This document shows positions 1,205 through 49,820 of a stretch of DNA of 64,000 nt, piece after piece. The position numbers were made by a program, and so were the translations under genes. The stretch comes from Halothiobacillus sp. Its GTDB lineage: Bacteria > Pseudomonadota > Gammaproteobacteria > Halothiobacillales > Halothiobacillaceae. The stretch spans positions 1-64,000 of the forward strand of contig JAGUXT010000059.1 in assembly GCA_020061705.1 (NCBI GenBank). Reading direction: 5' to 3'. The notes beneath the pieces are model-generated. The model saw only the letters and a program-made list of their open reading frames with translations. It made no database searches and was not told where the DNA came from. Each line of letters begins with the position of its first letter. Positions within the stretch are counted from its first letter, which is position 1.

Positions 1205-3976
1205 TTAGCGCTCGGGTAGAAACTCACCTTCAAACTCAATAATTATGTCGTCAATGCCAGATAAATTTACACGTTCTTTGTCCTGCTTTTGAATTTCAAG
1301 ACACCAAGGTCCCTCAGGAGTAAGTTTTACATACGTCTCAGAACCCCCGAGGCTAAACCCACGCGTGACGCTATCTTCAATCTGATAAAAAATATGAGTA
1401 ATTCGTGGTTCATGACTGAATTCAATAACTTCACCCTCCACCGTCCGCAACAGGGCAGTTCCGAGATGGGTGAGGCGCAATCCAAATGGGCTGGTTGCAA
1501 GTCCTCTATCAGCTATAGCAATCCCGGGTAAAGAGATGCGTACAGTCGTAACCCTTACCATTGACATTTGAGTGAACGGTAAATAGGGAATGCTGAATAC
1601 AGCCTGCCCATTATTCTTAAAATCATTAAGGCATATCAATCCGATTTCATTCTTGAAAGAGAAATGGGCAAGCCTGTCTGAAAACTTGAATGTTTGTACT
1701 TCACGCCCTCTATTCTCGATAGAGTCGACTAGCTTTAAGTACGTTTGTGCATGGATTGTTGCCAAATGGTCGATGCTGTCCCTTGATATTGTTAATGGGT
1801 AGCGCTTGCCCGCCCAGTATTCTAGTGCGCGATGTTCTTGATATAGTAGCTGCATAAGAACGCGCTTATTGAGCATATTTGCACGTGACATAAAGCTCAC
1901 AAACTCTGGAAGATGCTGAACATTTGGTCTGTTAACCTGCTGTCGAAGCCTTCCAATTTCACTTGATGATTTTGATATATCGCTAAGCAACTCCGTTCTA
2001 CTGTTGCTAAGTATATTATATTCGATGAGTTTGCTGTTGCGTGTGGTTACTAATTCTATAAAATTATCAATCTCTGCTAGATAAGCCTTTGCCTCAGGCA
2101 AGTGTCGGAACGGTTCAACCGTTGCCTGAATATCTTTGCGTTGCATTAGCAGTTTCCCTGCGTCATTAGGTAATTCAGGTGGTAATATTCCTTTAGGATT
2201 AAGCATATCCCGTATTTCGGACAAACCTTTCGAAACGCCTTGAATACCATTCCCAATTTCTATGATTTTCTCTATCTTGTATTTTGGCTCCGCAAGGTCA
2301 CCAAAAAAGTCATTAGGGTCATGATTTTTCTTATCAAAATCATTATAAGCTTGCCAAGCTGCCATAGCTGTTGCGGCACCTGTCCCGGCAGTGCCGATGG
2401 CGACAGCAATCGTACCCACTGCAAATGCAACATCATTAAATGCACAACTGCTCTGACGGCTGACGGCGTTCTTGAAATCTTCGGCCGTAGACTTTACGCG
2501 AAGCCAAGATGCTTCATATGCACATGTTAGGAGCTCAATCTCGCGAACAAGGGCATTTTCTAGTGTCCCGATGTTTCGGAGACTATCTTCAAGATATGCT
2601 ATTAATCCCTCTTGCTTGGCAATACCTAATTCAAAATGTACTTTTGCTTCTTTCCAGTCATTTAGGGAGTCGCGGTATTTAATATAGTTTGTTTCTATTA
2701 TTCTTGCATGATCCAATAAATAGGCCAATGCCTGTGAGTAGAACTCATAGCTGACAAGTGGAACAAAATTTCGTTGATTACCCCAATAGTCCAATCCGAG
2801 TGAAAGTCGTCTTATCAGCAGAAATGTTTTAGTTCGTAATGCTTCGAATTCATCAGAATTTACTGATATTTCGTTGGGCAATCCAGCGTCATAAACCATT
2901 TCACGTAGTGAGCGACGAACTGTACGTTTGACGAGTAGCCGACCCAGCCAAATGAGTTGATCTAACGCGTTGCTCTCATCTGAATTGGCATAGAGTGTTT
3001 CAGCTTCCCTTAATGCAAGCTCAAGGTACAAAAGACTAGCAGCGCAGGCTAATTTAGCTTCTATATCCTCACGTATATCATCGCCTTGCCCATTAACAAT
3101 TGTTAAGTGTCCTATGTTTCCAGCTTCGCTTATACTAGGACGGTTAGAAAAACTTGCACCGGGCGGTCCTTCAGAAGCGTTACCCAATTCGCAAAGTTTT
3201 CTGGGGGGGCGTGGGGGGCAAATTAGCATAGGCTTACGATTAAAAAGATTGGGTACGCACGGTTCACGCTCTGAATAGACTATACCCCCTTTGCCACCAT
3301 CTCCCCCTTCACCAGCATTACCATGTTGACCTGGATTGCCAGGTGTACCTGGGTCAACATGTGCGTGAATGAGCTCGGACTTTAATGGAGATAAAACCAC
3401 GAGAGAGATATCGCCACCATCGCCACCTTTGCCTGGGATACCTGCTGAACCAGCTGAACCACCCGGGCCACCGCGGGTGGGTGGGGTGCATCTATCATGG
3501 TCATTACCTTTTGTGCCCTTTATTCCGTTACCACCGCTCTGGGCAGCTCCACCGTTGCCACCTTTAGCGAGAAGTTGAATTGAACCTTCTATAGTCTCAG
3601 CGAATATAGAAATTTTGCCACCATTACTGCCATTGCCCCCATTATCACCTGGTTTACCTGGTTCACCTGGTCCAGAGCCTGAAAGTGCAGGCGCACGATC
3701 GCTGTAATCTGGTGAACCAACTTCACCGCTTACATCCAATACGGCATCTGAATGAGCAATTACTCGCCGAGCAAATATTTCTAATAGTCCACTTGGAAGT
3801 CTTAAGTGTCCATCAACTTCCACGACAGTAGCACGAACGATCAAAGCTTTAGTTTTACCTTTATCTTGTATGACCTGATTCTGTGATATTCGAACATTAA
3901 TACCTGTAATGACCACTCTGTCATCCATTGAGGTGTCAATATGATAACGCTCATCGTCGGGGACTTGAAAGTACAT
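1205..3976 (-). CDS. Large collagen-like (Gly-rich) protein, function unknown
   Basis: This is a 923-residue protein. Residues about 20-95 look like beta-strands. Residues about 95-235 hold Gly-Xaa-Yaa and GGNGG-type repeats broken by short beta segments. A long helical, probably coiled-coil part follows, with one hydrophobic Ala/Gly-rich stretch near 515-545. The C-terminal 150 residues look beta-rich again. No signal peptide is seen, and no enzyme motif. AAGGTGA precedes the ATG at a good distance, and an in-frame stop immediately upstream fixes the start. It follows a lipoprotein gene in the same direction, so the two may work together at the cell surface or in a toxin/adhesin-like assembly, but this is inference. 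The stop codon sits in CGCTAAC, a cassette-like R'' box. Confidence 0.65.
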   Translation of the reverse strand: MYFQVPDDERYHIDTSMDDRVVITGINVRISQNQVIQDKGKTKALIVRATVVEVDGHLRLPSGLLEIFARRVIAHSDAVLDVSGEVGSPDYSDRAPALSGSGPGEPGKPGDNGGNGSNGGKISIFAETIEGSIQLLAKGGNGGAAQSGGNGIKGTKGNDHDRCTPPTRGGPGGSAGSAGIPGKGGDGGDISLVVLSPLKSELIHAHVDPGTPGNPGQHGNAGEGGDGGKGGIVYSEREPCVPNLFNRKPMLICPPRPPRKLCELGNASEGPPGASFSNRPSISEAGNIGHLTIVNGQGDDIREDIEAKLACAASLLYLELALREAETLYANSDESNALDQLIWLGRLLVKRTVRRSLREMVYDAGLPNEISVNSDEFEALRTKTFLLIRRLSLGLDYWGNQRNFVPLVSYEFYSQALAYLLDHARIIETNYIKYRDSLNDWKEAKVHFELGIAKQEGLIAYLEDSLRNIGTLENALVREIELLTCAYEASWLRVKSTAEDFKNAVSRQSSCAFNDVAFAVGTIAVAIGTAGTGAATAMAAWQAYNDFDKKNHDPNDFFGDLAEPKYKIEKIIEIGNGIQGVSKGLSEIRDMLNPKGILPPELPNDAGKLLMQRKDIQATVEPFRHLPEAKAYLAEIDNFIELVTTRNSKLIEYNILSNSRTELLSDISKSSSEIGRLRQQVNRPNVQHLPEFVSFMSRANMLNKRVLMQLLYQEHRALEYWAGKRYPLTISRDSIDHLATIHAQTYLKLVDSIENRGREVQTFKFSDRLAHFSFKNEIGLICLNDFKNNGQAVFSIPYLPFTQMSMVRVTTVRISLPGIAIADRGLATSPFGLRLTHLGTALLRTVEGEVIEFSHEPRITHIFYQIEDSVTRGFSLGGSETYVKLTPEGPWCLEIQKQDKERVNLSGIDDIIIEFEGEFLPER

Positions 3977-46712: not shown

Positions 46713-47306
46713 ATGAGTCCGTTAAAAGTTGCTTGTACCCTTGTTCTCGTGCTGCTTCTCGCGCTGCTGGCATTCGCCTGCACCAGTCTGTTGCCTAGAG
46801 GCACATCCGTAACAGCCTCGCCGTGGGCAGAGTATGCCGATGCACGAGCGGCGTTTGACAAGATTGAACCGATGAAGACCACGACAGACGAGCTGAAAGT
46901 GCTCGGTTTTGATGCGACGAGTGGCATCAACGTGACCCTGTTGAACTATACCGATGTCATTACGCGCTTTATTCCCAGCCCGGTCATTGCGCGCGAAGAT
47001 CTTGAGGATGGCATTCTGCAATGTATTGAGGCTCAACAGGCTTGCCAAGTAATCCAGTACGACCTGAAAAAGATGGAAAGGCAGCGTTATGGCAACTTCT
47101 TCCTTGATTTTTTCAATTTTTCACGCAAGCAGGAAAGCAAGGGCTGGAGCCTGAGCGTGCTGATTCTGCTTTTGGATAACCGGGTGATTTACAAGCTGTG
47201 GAGCGGCCAACCCAATATTCTTGAATACAGCCATGACAAATACCCGCTAGGCCCCTTCCAGAATGTCGGGCCAAGCGTAATACAGCAGGGGGTAACGGGT
47301 AATTGA
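46713..47306 (+). CDS. Putative lipoprotein
   Basis: 197 residues. The N-terminal hydrophobic segment ends at LLAFACTS, a plausible lipobox, so the product is probably a membrane-anchored periplasmic lipoprotein. Residues about 50-75 (KTTTDELKVLGFD) recall the SmpA/OmlA-type 'T.DEL..LG' motif seen in outer-membrane small lipoproteins, but the rest is not recognised. It is monocistronic, with a small hairpin (ATGACG/CGTCAT) after the stop. Confidence 0.6.
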   Translation: MSPLKVACTLVLVLLLALLAFACTSLLPRGTSVTASPWAEYADARAAFDKIEPMKTTTDELKVLGFDATSGINVTLLNYTDVITRFIPSPVIAREDLEDGILQCIEAQQACQVIQYDLKKMERQRYGNFFLDFFNFSRKQESKGWSLSVLILLLDNRVIYKLWSGQPNILEYSHDKYPLGPFQNVGPSVIQQGVTGN

Positions 47307-47453: not shown

Positions 47454-47469
47454 AAGCATGTTCATGCTT
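47454..47469. promoter_or_regulatory. Palindrome overlapping the first Y-RNA promoter
   Basis: AAGCATG-TT-CATGCTT is a perfect 7-bp-arm palindrome whose right arm overlaps the -35 box of the first small-RNA promoter. It is a candidate operator. The second promoter lacks it. Confidence 0.35.
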
Positions 47470-47496
47470 GACTTGAACATGAATAATTAATATTAT
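47468..47496 (+). promoter_or_regulatory. Sigma-70 promoter of Y-like RNA 1
   Basis: TTGACT, a 17-bp spacer and TATTAT, a near-consensus promoter placing the start at about 47501-47503, exactly where the RNA's terminal stem begins. Confidence 0.8.
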
Positions 47497-47500
47497 TTCA

Positions 47501-47614
47501 AACATGCGTAGTGAAGCACACCGTTACTTCGGTTGTCATGGGTTCGAGCCCCATCGCGGCTTCTTTGTGAAGTTGTGTAGCTCAGTTGGTAGAGCCCCGC
47601 GGTGTGCGTATGTT
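47501..47614 (+). ncRNA. Y RNA-like RNA 1 with permuted tRNA-like domain (YrlA type)
   Basis: The ends pair: AACAT with ATGTT, and GCACACCG region with CGGTGTGC, with an asymmetric internal loop containing GCGTAGTG. Inside, tRNA parts occur in permuted order: T-arm ATGGG-TTCGAGC-CCCAT (47538-47554), acceptor 3' strand CGCGGCT and 5' strand AGTTGTG (all 7 pairs form, plus two more, closed by TTTGT), U8-A9, then a D-arm GCTC-AGTTGGTA-GAGC (47580-47595). The anticodon arm is missing. Position beside a Ro60 gene matches bacterial Y RNAs, which tether Ro60 to other proteins such as PNPase. Confidence 0.8.
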
Positions 47615-47667
47615 CTCGCATGAGTGTTTCTGCGTTGCTCAATGAAGGCGACTCAGAATAAACAGGC

Positions 47668-47696
47668 TTGACTTGTTGTTGAATAATTAATAATGT
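47668..47696 (+). promoter_or_regulatory. Sigma-70 promoter of Y-like RNA 2
   Basis: TTGACT, 17-bp spacer, TAATGT. Exactly 200 bp downstream of the first promoter, with a shared spacer end GAATAATTAA, so the promoter-RNA unit was duplicated in tandem. Confidence 0.8.
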
Positions 47697-47700
47697 ATCA

Positions 47701-47831
47701 AACATGCGTAGTGTAGCGCACCGTTACTTCGACTGCTAATCGAGAGGTCATGGGTTCGAGTCCCGTTGCGAGCGCCATGTGCGGTCGTATAGCTCAGTGG
47801 TAGAGCGCTTAACGTTCGGTGTGCGTTTGTT
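47701..47831 (+). ncRNA. Y RNA-like RNA 2: permuted tRNA with complete anticodon arm
   Basis: The ends pair through GCGCACCG/CGGTGTGC (8 bp) and AACA/TGTT. The interior has full class I tRNA geometry in permuted order: anticodon arm TTCGA-CTGCTAA-TCGAG (47728-47744, anticodon GCU), 5-nt variable loop AGGTC, T-arm ATGGG-TTCGAGT-CCCGT, acceptor 3' strand TGCGAGC, discriminator G and CCA (47774-47777). After a 5-nt linker comes the acceptor 5' strand GGTCGTA (six of seven pairs, one G-G mismatch), U8-A9 and the D-arm GCTC-AGTGGTA-GAGC. Whether it is cleaved at the acceptor ends is unknown. Confidence 0.8.
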
Positions 47832-48054
47832 CTCGCATGAATGATTTTGAGTGGTGTTGAATGCGGTTACTTCTTGCCAAGAAACTCCCCGCATTCGCTT
47901 TGTTCCCTCATGATTTTGCGTGCCGCAGGTTTCAGCTGCATCGCCTGTGATCAGGCGTTTGTCATCTGCTGAGTGGCGGTTGTCGCAGGCATCAGGGGCT
48001 TCTTTTGAGCCAGAGAGCTTTGAGCCTAGAGAGCTTTGAGCAAGAGACCTTGAT
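47832..48054. other. Leader region of rsr with hairpin and short direct repeats
   Basis: A small stem CGCCTG-TGAT-CAGGCG (47942-47957) followed by TTTG may end the Y-like RNA transcript. AGAGAGCTTTGAGC occurs twice (about 48011-48045) just before the rsr start. No coding region is seen. Confidence 0.45.
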
Positions 48055-49467
48055 ATGAAACTGAATACTCGTGCTATTGGCCCGCGCACCCATGAAGGTG
48101 CCGTGGCATCCCCCATCTCCCCCGCAGAAGAATTGCGCCGCTCCGTGCTGTCCTGCCTGCTGTGGGAGAACCAGTTCTATGAAAGCGGCGAGGACATTGC
48201 GGCTCGTATTGCGCGTCTGGTGCCGAAAGTGGGCTTTGATGTTCTGGCTGAGCTGGTCATCGAAGCCCGTGAGAGCATGAAGTTGCGTCATGTGCCGCTG
48301 TTGCTGGTGCGCGAAGGGCTGCGTCATTACGGCGGCCGCAAGATGGGCGACCTTATTGAGCGTGTCATCCAGCGCCCGGATGAAATGGGCGAGCTGATGG
48401 CGTTGTATTGGCAGGAGAAGCCAGACGCGCCGCTGGCCAAGCAACTTAAAGTTGGCCTGGCGCGCGCCTTCCGCAAATTCGATGCCTACCAACTGGCGAA
48501 ATACGATCGCAACGCGAGCGTGCGCCTGCGTGACGTGGTGTTTCTGACCCACGTGCGTGCTGGCGATAACCGCGTACTGGCTGAAAACATCGCCAAGCTG
48601 GTGAACAAGGAAACCATTCCCGCACAGGTTGTAGAGCGTTACGGCTTCGAAAACATGGCGCCGGGTTTGTCCGTACCGGATACCTGGGAGGTGGCTCTGT
48701 CATCCGGCAAGGATAAGCGTGAAACCTTCGAACGCATGATTCAGGAGCGCAAGCTCGGTGCGTTGGCGATGCTGCGTAACCTGCGCGGCATGATTGCGGC
48801 GGAGGTGCCTGAAGAGATCATCCGTCAGGGGCTGGTCAGCATGAAGACCGAGCGGGTGCTGCCGTTCCGTTTTCTTGCCGCCGCACGCTATGCACCGCAA
48901 TTTGAGCCTGAACTGGAAGCTGGAATGTTTACGTCCCTCAATGGCGTGGCAAAGTTGCCGGGCATGACGGTCATTCTGGTCGATATTTCCAGTTCGATGG
49001 GTTCGACTCTCTCAGTTCGAAGTGACATGAAGCGAGTGGATGCAGCCTATGGACTCGCCATCATGGCGCGCGAGGTTTGCGAACAGGTTCGCGTGATGAC
49101 CTTCAGCGATAACATTGTCGAGGTGCCGCCGCGACGTGGGTTTGCATTGCGTGATGCCATGCACAATTCTCAAGCGCATAACGCGACCTATCTTGGCAAG
49201 GCAGTGAAAGAAATCAATCGCAAGGGCAAGGTGTCCGACCGATTGATTGTTATCACCGATGAGCAATCGCAAGATCAGGTGGGGGCGCCGAAGGCAGCCA
49301 ATGCCTACATGATTAACGTCGCCTCTTTTCAGAACGGCGTCGGTTATGAGCAAGGCTGGACGCATATCAATGGCTGGTCCGAGCATGTTGTGCGTTATAT
49401 CGCAGCGCTTGAGGGTGTCGCCGACCCAGTGGGAGGAGGGGATGTGCTTGACGAGAGCACAGAGTGA
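48055..49467 (+). CDS. rsr: Ro60/TROVE-domain RNA-binding protein (Rsr)
   Basis: 470 residues. A HEAT-repeat TROVE ring domain (about 20-330: SVLSCLLWENQFYE near the start, HVPLLLVREGL, LRDVVFLTHVRA, TWEVALSSGKDKRE) is followed by a von Willebrand A domain whose MIDAS motif is VDISSSMGS (DxSxS). Ro60 binds Y RNAs on the outside of its ring and the ends of misfolded RNAs in its cavity, and cooperates with exoribonucleases. The two upstream tRNA-like RNAs are its likely partners. It overlaps the next gene by 4 nt. Confidence 0.95.
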   Translation: MKLNTRAIGPRTHEGAVASPISPAEELRRSVLSCLLWENQFYESGEDIAARIARLVPKVGFDVLAELVIEARESMKLRHVPLLLVREGLRHYGGRKMGDLIERVIQRPDEMGELMALYWQEKPDAPLAKQLKVGLARAFRKFDAYQLAKYDRNASVRLRDVVFLTHVRAGDNRVLAENIAKLVNKETIPAQVVERYGFENMAPGLSVPDTWEVALSSGKDKRETFERMIQERKLGALAMLRNLRGMIAAEVPEEIIRQGLVSMKTERVLPFRFLAAARYAPQFEPELEAGMFTSLNGVAKLPGMTVILVDISSSMGSTLSVRSDMKRVDAAYGLAIMAREVCEQVRVMTFSDNIVEVPPRRGFALRDAMHNSQAHNATYLGKAVKEINRKGKVSDRLIVITDEQSQDQVGAPKAANAYMINVASFQNGVGYEQGWTHINGWSEHVVRYIAALEGVADPVGGGDVLDESTE

Positions 49468-49820
49468 AGTCCAACACACCGACCAAACGCGGTGGGCGGC
49501 GTGAAAACGCCGGTCGCCCCCGCATGTCGAATGAGCTCAAGCAACCGGTCTCTGTTTCACTTACTCGATCCGAGGTTGAGCAGCTGGATGGCATGAACGA
49601 AGGCGGTCGATCTCAGGCGGTTTCATCCCTCCTGAGAATGCATAGCAAAAGCGTGCGGATCTGGCCGCGGGATGATGTTCCGGCAGCACTCGGCGACCCA
49701 GGCGAGGCATCGTTCATGGCGGAGTGTCCCAACACGCTCCTTGATCTTTTCAATGAAGTCCCACACCACAAACAGCCCCATCCCACACTTAGCGGATGGG
49801 CTGTTCTTTGGCTTGAGTGA
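49464..49820 (+). CDS. Small basic protein, possible ribbon-helix-helix regulator
   Basis: 118 residues from a GTG overlapping the rsr stop. The N-terminus KRGGRRENAGRPRM is a basic arm of a kind often preceding phage-type DNA-binding proteins, and VSVSLTRSEVEQLDGMNEGG could form a ribbon-helix-helix. The C-terminal 50 residues are unremarkable. Coupling to rsr suggests a regulator or partner of the Ro/Y-RNA locus (inference). Confidence 0.55.
   Translation: MKSNTPTKRGGRRENAGRPRMSNELKQPVSVSLTRSEVEQLDGMNEGGRSQAVSSLLRMHSKSVRIWPRDDVPAALGDPGEASFMAECPNTLLDLFNEVPHHKQPHPTLSGWAVLWLE

Follow-up and report, generated by a model that had tools for sequence, protein, structure and literature searches.

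Three candidate Y RNA genes preceding a Ro60 gene in Halothiobacillus sp., one of them a probable Rsr-tethered tRNA mimic

The window analysed here is a 64,000-nucleotide stretch of DNA from Halothiobacillus sp., in which the region 47454-48054 of the + strand holds an array of three putative Y RNA genes, in the order B-A-C, followed by a Ro60/Rsr gene (rsr; 48055..49467, +). The Y RNA units lie ahead of rsr at distances of 145 to about 550 nt, beside the Ro60/Rsr gene as bacterial Y RNAs do. The encoded protein combines a TROVE domain (PF05731, 45.3 bits against a cut-off of 23) with a vWA domain whose MIDAS residues (D310-x-S-x-S, T378, D402) are invariant, which is the combination that identifies Ro60/Rsr proteins. 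Sequence comparison and fold comparison (Foldseek) both rank Ro60 structures first, the structural model being of moderate quality (pLDDT 74, pTM 0.59). A sister species has a homologue with 93% identity (locus L009, which is identical to L030), and the homologues in Bradyrhizobium and Acidobacteria are about 55% identical. Among 40 related genomes, the window's own included, rsr occurs in two; its distribution is therefore patchy, and the gene is probably mobile. Immediately downstream, a 118-aa ORF (49464..49820, +) overlaps the rsr stop by 4 bp and is kept in L009 (5410-5766); a Pfam search with it gave no match, and with its basic N-terminus it resembles a DNA-binding protein. On the other side, the Y RNAs of the window are preceded by a lipoprotein-like ORF (46713-47306), which replaces two small minus-strand ORFs, a HEPN/MNT-like pair as judged by eye, that adjoin the Y RNAs on their upstream side in L009 (2659-3299).

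In a preliminary description of this locus, two Y RNA-like genes exactly 200 bp apart, each with its own promoter, were reported. Two sigma-70-like TTGACT-N17 elements 200 bp apart can indeed be read directly from the sequence: TTGACT-N17-TATTAT ahead of unit B (47468..47496, +) and TTGACT-N17-TAATGT ahead of unit A (47668..47696, +). A consensus promoter scan returned two sites against 0.6 expected, and of the two TTGACT elements only the first, that of unit B, passed. An element of the form TTGACTTG...AATTAATA stands upstream of all four tRNA-like units in two genomes, that of the window and that of the L009 relative. The 200-bp repeat holds for the 69-nt 5' parts of units B and A, which are 86% identical, but not for their later parts, which are shifted by 212 and 217 bp because the second unit, A, holds 12 extra nucleotides. 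Both of the units first described are confirmed in the sequence, but a third, minimal unit (47848-47910) had been overlooked. The proposal that a duplication gives two effector modules was oversimple: there are three units of three architectures (B, tRNA-like with no closed anticodon arm; A, a complete tRNA; C, with no tRNA domain), and in the nearest relative, L009, their order is A-B-C. Units A and B have thus exchanged places, which is not the outcome of a plain duplication.

Unit B (47503..47622, +), recognized by an Rfam match, a permuted-core parser and a hairpin register scan, is a YrlA-like Y RNA gene composed of a two-part basal stem, a T-arm (47538-47554), a 9-bp acceptor hairpin (47555-47577) and a D-arm starting at 47578. 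In the tRNA register it forms no closed hairpin for an anticodon, UUCG (47528-47531) standing there instead. The permuted series of T-arm, acceptor 3' strand, acceptor 5' strand, U8-A9 and D-arm listed in the preliminary description was recovered in both tRNA-like units, with a short loop between the acceptor strands and a 5-bp T-arm carrying TTCGAGC or TTCGAGT. That list was incomplete for unit A (47703..47839, +), whose anticodon arm and CCA had escaped notice. The 12 extra nucleotides of unit A sit just 5' of the T-arm, and, as far as its sequence can tell, this unit holds every segment of a tRNA, circularly permuted and opened between residues 26 and 27. From 5' to 3' on the + strand it comprises the anticodon arm UUCGA-CUGCUAA-UCGAG (47728..47744, with the triplet GCU at 47735-47737), the variable loop AGGUC with the T-arm (47745..47766), the acceptor hairpin (47767..47789; 3' strand 47767-47773, G73-CCA 47774-47777, 5' strand to 47789), and U8-A9 with the D-arm (47790..47807). 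The anticodon arm (5 bp, 7-nt loop) and the standard AGGUC variable loop are in exact tRNA register. Unit A is 95% conserved in L009 and conserved also in Bradyrhizobium. It differs from a functional tRNA, which runs contiguously from 5' to 3' with free ends and a consistent identity, in being permuted and in joining a GCU anticodon to a 5-nt variable loop. In the minimum-energy fold of unit A as a single sequence, the anticodon segment is paired differently, with an advantage of 1.7 kcal/mol.

Unit C (47848..47910, +; 63 nt) is a candidate for a minimal Y RNA with no tRNA domain, conserved in L009 with 93% of columns identical and folding with z = -3.3, and a reading of this segment as a terminator hairpin was dropped in its favour. 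It is built as stem, GGUG box, stem, GGUUACUUC, stem, CUUUGUUCCC, stem, with the stems UGAG / GAAUGCGG, and this short architecture also occurs upstream of rsr in about 30 phage or viral loci, always on the sense strand. Units A, B and C have in common a two-part basal helix with a conserved internal loop of UAGUGWAG / GGUG on one side and UUUGUUC on the other, together with a UUACUUC segment. In each the 5' and 3' ends are paired by such a long-range basal stem, as in Y RNAs, and by likeness to known Y RNAs this helix is predicted to be the part that clamps onto the Rsr ring.

The covariance-model search proposed in the preliminary description was run, and the Rfam YrlA model (RF02553) matches both tRNA-like units with 38.3 and 38.0 bits (E about 1e-6), short of the gathering score of 69. 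The copies in relatives and phages also score below 69. A third YrlA-like match elsewhere in the genome (L008), without tRNA, was judged to be chance. Tandem tRNA genes are natural decoys for this model, and the best of them in the window's genome reaches 27.6 bits, below the 38 bits of the units. A parser requiring just a T-arm, an acceptor and a D-arm in permuted order was applied to 110 rsr loci. It identified 90 permuted cores on the sense (+) strand at 68 loci, 87 of the 90 within 1.5 kb upstream of rsr, while the minus strand, the reversed sequence and five shuffles (783 kb) yielded no core at all. Cores restricted in strand and position, with zero in every control, exclude chance, and their confinement to the regions upstream of rsr marks the units as a conserved companion of this rsr subfamily. 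The paired segments are kept beside rsr in relatives with compensatory changes, which rules out a lack of conservation. Together with the Rfam match, the TROVE and vWA domains and the Ro60 structures, these changes bear out the original assignment of Y RNA-like genes with a permuted tRNA upstream of Ro60. We classify the tRNA-like units of the window, on sequence grounds, as Y RNAs of a YrlA-like variant and not as Rfam-grade YrlA.

It is hardly credible that degenerate tandem tRNA genes, that is, pseudogenes, have been misread as Y RNAs. Tandem tRNAs do match the YrlA model weakly (the 27.6 bits above), and ARAGORN labels unit A as tRNA-Ser in a call spanning 47702-47777 of the window and overlapping the permuted unit. 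However, the units' own acceptor strands fit each other (52 of 52 called, against 26.6 of 52 when the 5' halves were dealt), the association of the units with rsr is strict, the basal helix is conserved, and the genome elsewhere has no close match among its tRNAs. Calls of the same kind are present in GenBank over permuted units of phages, namely at L052 2793-2867 (Gurke, 'tRNA-Ser'), L053 2792-2859 (10KY502B, 'tRNA-Thr') and L056 2131-2198 (CcrColossus, 'tRNA-Gln'). tRNA calls that overlap permuted units beside Ro60 genes are probably misannotations, so that for some phage and bacterial 'tRNA genes' adjoining Ro60 genes the annotation is probably wrong.

Bradyrhizobium and many phages likewise carry the anticodon arm upstream of rsr. 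Among 94 units, a count that includes related sequences, as do all the unit counts for hairpin and loop, a fully paired (5/5) hairpin with a 7-nt loop exactly 5 nt before the T-stem is found in 30, whereas every other pairing of a gap (0-13) with a loop length (4-11) yields at most 8. When the 3' strands were redistributed among the units, 5/5 hairpins arose in 6.1 on average and in 14 at most. The anticodon stem has a covariation score of 0.496, compared with 0.188 for shuffled and at most 0.095 for slid segments. In the underlying set of 47 rows, which were selected for bearing the hairpin and whose percentage of pairing is thereby inflated, pair 31-39 is AU in 22, CG in 22 and UA in 3, with none broken, and pair 30-40 alternates between GC and CG. 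RNAalifold, given the units of the window, L009 and Bradyrhizobium, recovers the arm unprompted, with the closing pair AU in 7, UA in 6 and CG in 4. U33 is present in 49 of 52 armed units and a purine at position 37 in all 52, and G37 occurs only where G36 precedes it (8/8); U33, a purine at 37 and G37 after G36 form the pattern of real tRNAs. ARAGORN was also tried on the un-permuted units, where it called all 52 armed ones, and was rejected as support for the arm when its control failed: with the anticodon segment shuffled or slid it called 75 and 82 of the 94 units, as against 81 with the true segment. A call rate that is alike with a scrambled arm means that the program gives the arm no support.

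CCA at exactly positions 74-76, after a 7-nt acceptor strand and one further base, is carried by 21 of the 94 units, including unit A of the window, and at other offsets (5 to 13) by 0 to 5 units. A G73-CCA in register, an acceptor pairing of 6 to 7 bp and the existence of permuted tRNA genes elsewhere (PMC3978253) would fit a precursor that is cleaved at CCA/G1 and re-joined at 26/27 into a true tRNA. The permuted tRNA genes of algae and archaea likewise have the tRNA 3' half ahead of the 5' half. They yield real tRNAs, whereas the ends of the window units run into a conserved helix of the Rsr or Y RNA type. We regard maturation of this kind as very unlikely: an RNA that joins GCU to a short variable loop is no serine tRNA, the triplets of sister species are unrelated, many units have no CCA, and the RtcB ligase is absent from the window's genome.

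In 17 copies of unit A from Bradyrhizobium the core is nearly fixed, and positions 34, 35 and 36 are among the most variable columns, variation elsewhere being found at pair 31-39, which covaries, in the acceptor loop and in part of the D-loop. The triplets read in Bradyrhizobium and in L019 (CCA in the latter) are GUG, GCA, CCC, CAU, GAU, GUU, UCC, GCU, AUC and CCA. Between the window and L009, unit A differs at 3 of 7 anticodon-loop sites as against 4 of the remaining 131 (Fisher 0.003). This shows that the triplet is free to change and does not demonstrate positive selection, the acceptor loop and other unconstrained loop sites being equally variable. Nor was it upheld that entire tRNA loops of the same genome had been copied into the Y RNAs: among 50 tRNA matches in a single Bradyrhizobium genome (G040), the closest arm is that of tRNA-Asn (UUCGA-CUGUUAA-UCGAA, sharing the stem UUCGA/UCGAR), and just 4 of 11 Bradyrhizobium unit loops are identical to real tRNA loops of that genome, which argues for drift in place and not for repeated copying. 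No close tRNA match to unit A was found elsewhere in the window's genome, and recent copying of the unit from a genomic tRNA was rejected.

Several parts of this picture are already known. The tRNA-like domain of YrlA has already been recognized as a circularly permuted tRNA (PMC11472068; reviewed in PMC8394870), and Y RNAs near rsr as well as Y RNAs in phages, YrlA among them, have been reported. What the present sequences appear to add is the third, minimal unit, the closed anticodon arm, AGGUC and G73-CCA of unit A, and the recurrence and covariation of the arm. Canonical YrlA (RF02553; Salmonella YrlA, PDB 6CU1) resembles the window units in lying near rsr, in its basal stem and in its permuted T-, acceptor- and D-arms; the review likens it to these three arms only (PMC8394870). 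In gathering-level YrlA, a short stem after the D-arm runs straight into the basal helix with no closed anticodon hairpin, whereas unit A has the arm and CCA. In other Gammaproteobacteria, the strand 3' of the YrlA D-arm has as its partner the strand that precedes the variable region, and continues into the basal helix. This contrast is drawn from the Rfam consensus, from matches above or near the gathering score in other Gammaproteobacteria and from the same review. The basal box also differs, being GGUGGUGAAG-like in the window units and unlike the GCGAAUGC of YrlA.

It is conceivable, at rather less than even chances, that unit A performs ordinary YrlA function only. PNPase or general tRNA enzymes would then be recruited through the elbow of the tRNA-like domain, and the anticodon arm, devoid of any separate function, would cap the structure. 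Canonical YrlA works with no such arm, unit B and about 40 of the 94 units have no hairpin in the tRNA register, and the triplet is variable, all of which would suit a cap. Yet a passive cap would not require as much as is maintained in Bradyrhizobium, Gammaproteobacteria and phages alike: U33, R37, covariation in the stem, and AGGUC as the variable loop.

Rsr-related proteins were found in 82 phage records and on at least 240 viral contigs. The Rsr proteins of Caulobacter, Brevundimonas and Xanthomonas phages belong to the same subfamily as that of the window, with 46-51% identity. The phage Ro60 genes (CcrColossus, Brevundimonas jumbo phages, and the Thermus phage phiLo Ro60 of structure 9L5Y) have Y RNA arrays upstream, several of them with a complete tRNA mimic. 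The phage arrays differ from the window's in being larger, in including units with Leu-like D-arms and long variable arms, and in that several are annotated in GenBank as tRNA genes. In the Caulobacter jumbo phages L055 and L056 (about 2000-3000), about five or more Y RNA units lie in a row, and some of them, with these D-arms and variable arms, are class II tRNA mimics. A permuted tmRNA (RF04321, 57 bits, above gathering) lies a few kb from rsr in Brevundimonas jumbo phages (L052 6369-6714; L054 6752-7007), and a BrnT/CopG-type toxin-antitoxin pair is located just downstream of rsr on Deinococcus gobiensis plasmid P2 (L051 3865-4445).

A closed arm in which U33 and R37 are kept while 34-36 vary, the concentration of window/L009 differences in the loop (the 3/7 against 4/131 given above), and phage arrays that mix units with different triplets, such as UGU and UGG in L092 and L112, could together mean that unit A and its relatives sponge up enzymes that attack or modify anticodon loops, such as anticodon nucleases and VapC-like toxins, with the triplet tracking the attacked tRNA and the phage arrays serving as counter-defence. 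A study that found YrlA itself uncleaved proposed that it competitively inhibits an anticodon nuclease (PMC7790460). We consider this specific role possible but doubtful. The triplet is no more variable than the acceptor loop of the same RNAs, so that relaxed constraint explains it. The neighbours of phage rsr are mostly ordinary phage genes, RtcB adjoining one of the loci (1 in 90). Searches of the window's genome for RtcB and for an AAA_13 (PrrC/RloC-type) protein found none, which rules out both as local partners; nor is the locus an Rsr-RtcB RNA repair operon, in which rtcB/rtcA accompany rsr.

The reading that we favour, and hold to be probable, is that of a three-Y-RNA array in which unit A is an Rsr-tethered tRNA mimic recruiting or decoying tRNA-binding enzymes. 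Both tRNA-like units would be transcribed and bound by Rsr. In known systems, a Y RNA tethers Rsr to PNPase, and tRNA enzymes bind and modify YrlA (PMC8394870). The Y RNA/Rsr/PNPase machine of Deinococcus radiodurans (RYPER) shares with the window locus the adjacency of Rsr and Y RNA; PNPase is the partner in RYPER; in the window's genome, where it is also present, it would be a candidate for that role. We infer as the most economical model that the basal helix of unit A is gripped by Rsr, and that unit A then displays its whole tRNA surface, U-turn anticodon loop included, to tRNA-binding enzymes. The outcome could be either tethering, in which an enzyme (PNPase, or a tRNA-modifying or tRNA-processing enzyme) is joined to Rsr, or occupation, in which unit A engages an enzyme that would otherwise attack tRNAs. 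The anticodon triplet would be free to vary, either because any anticodon serves or because different lineages answer different partners.

A broader proposal, which we offer as speculative, is that bacteria and phages possess a distinct class of Ro60-bound Y RNAs that present complete tRNAs, closed anticodon arm and CCA included, with interchangeable anticodons, acting as decoys or baits for tRNA-attacking enzymes, and that the phage arrays of isoacceptor mimics serve counter-defence. The role of the tRNA-like part in bacterial Y RNAs may be addressed through a natural variant of this kind, in which an anticodon arm and CCA would extend a Y RNA that otherwise stays constant, and a triplet that shifts between sister species may give a direct handle on which tRNA enzyme is engaged.
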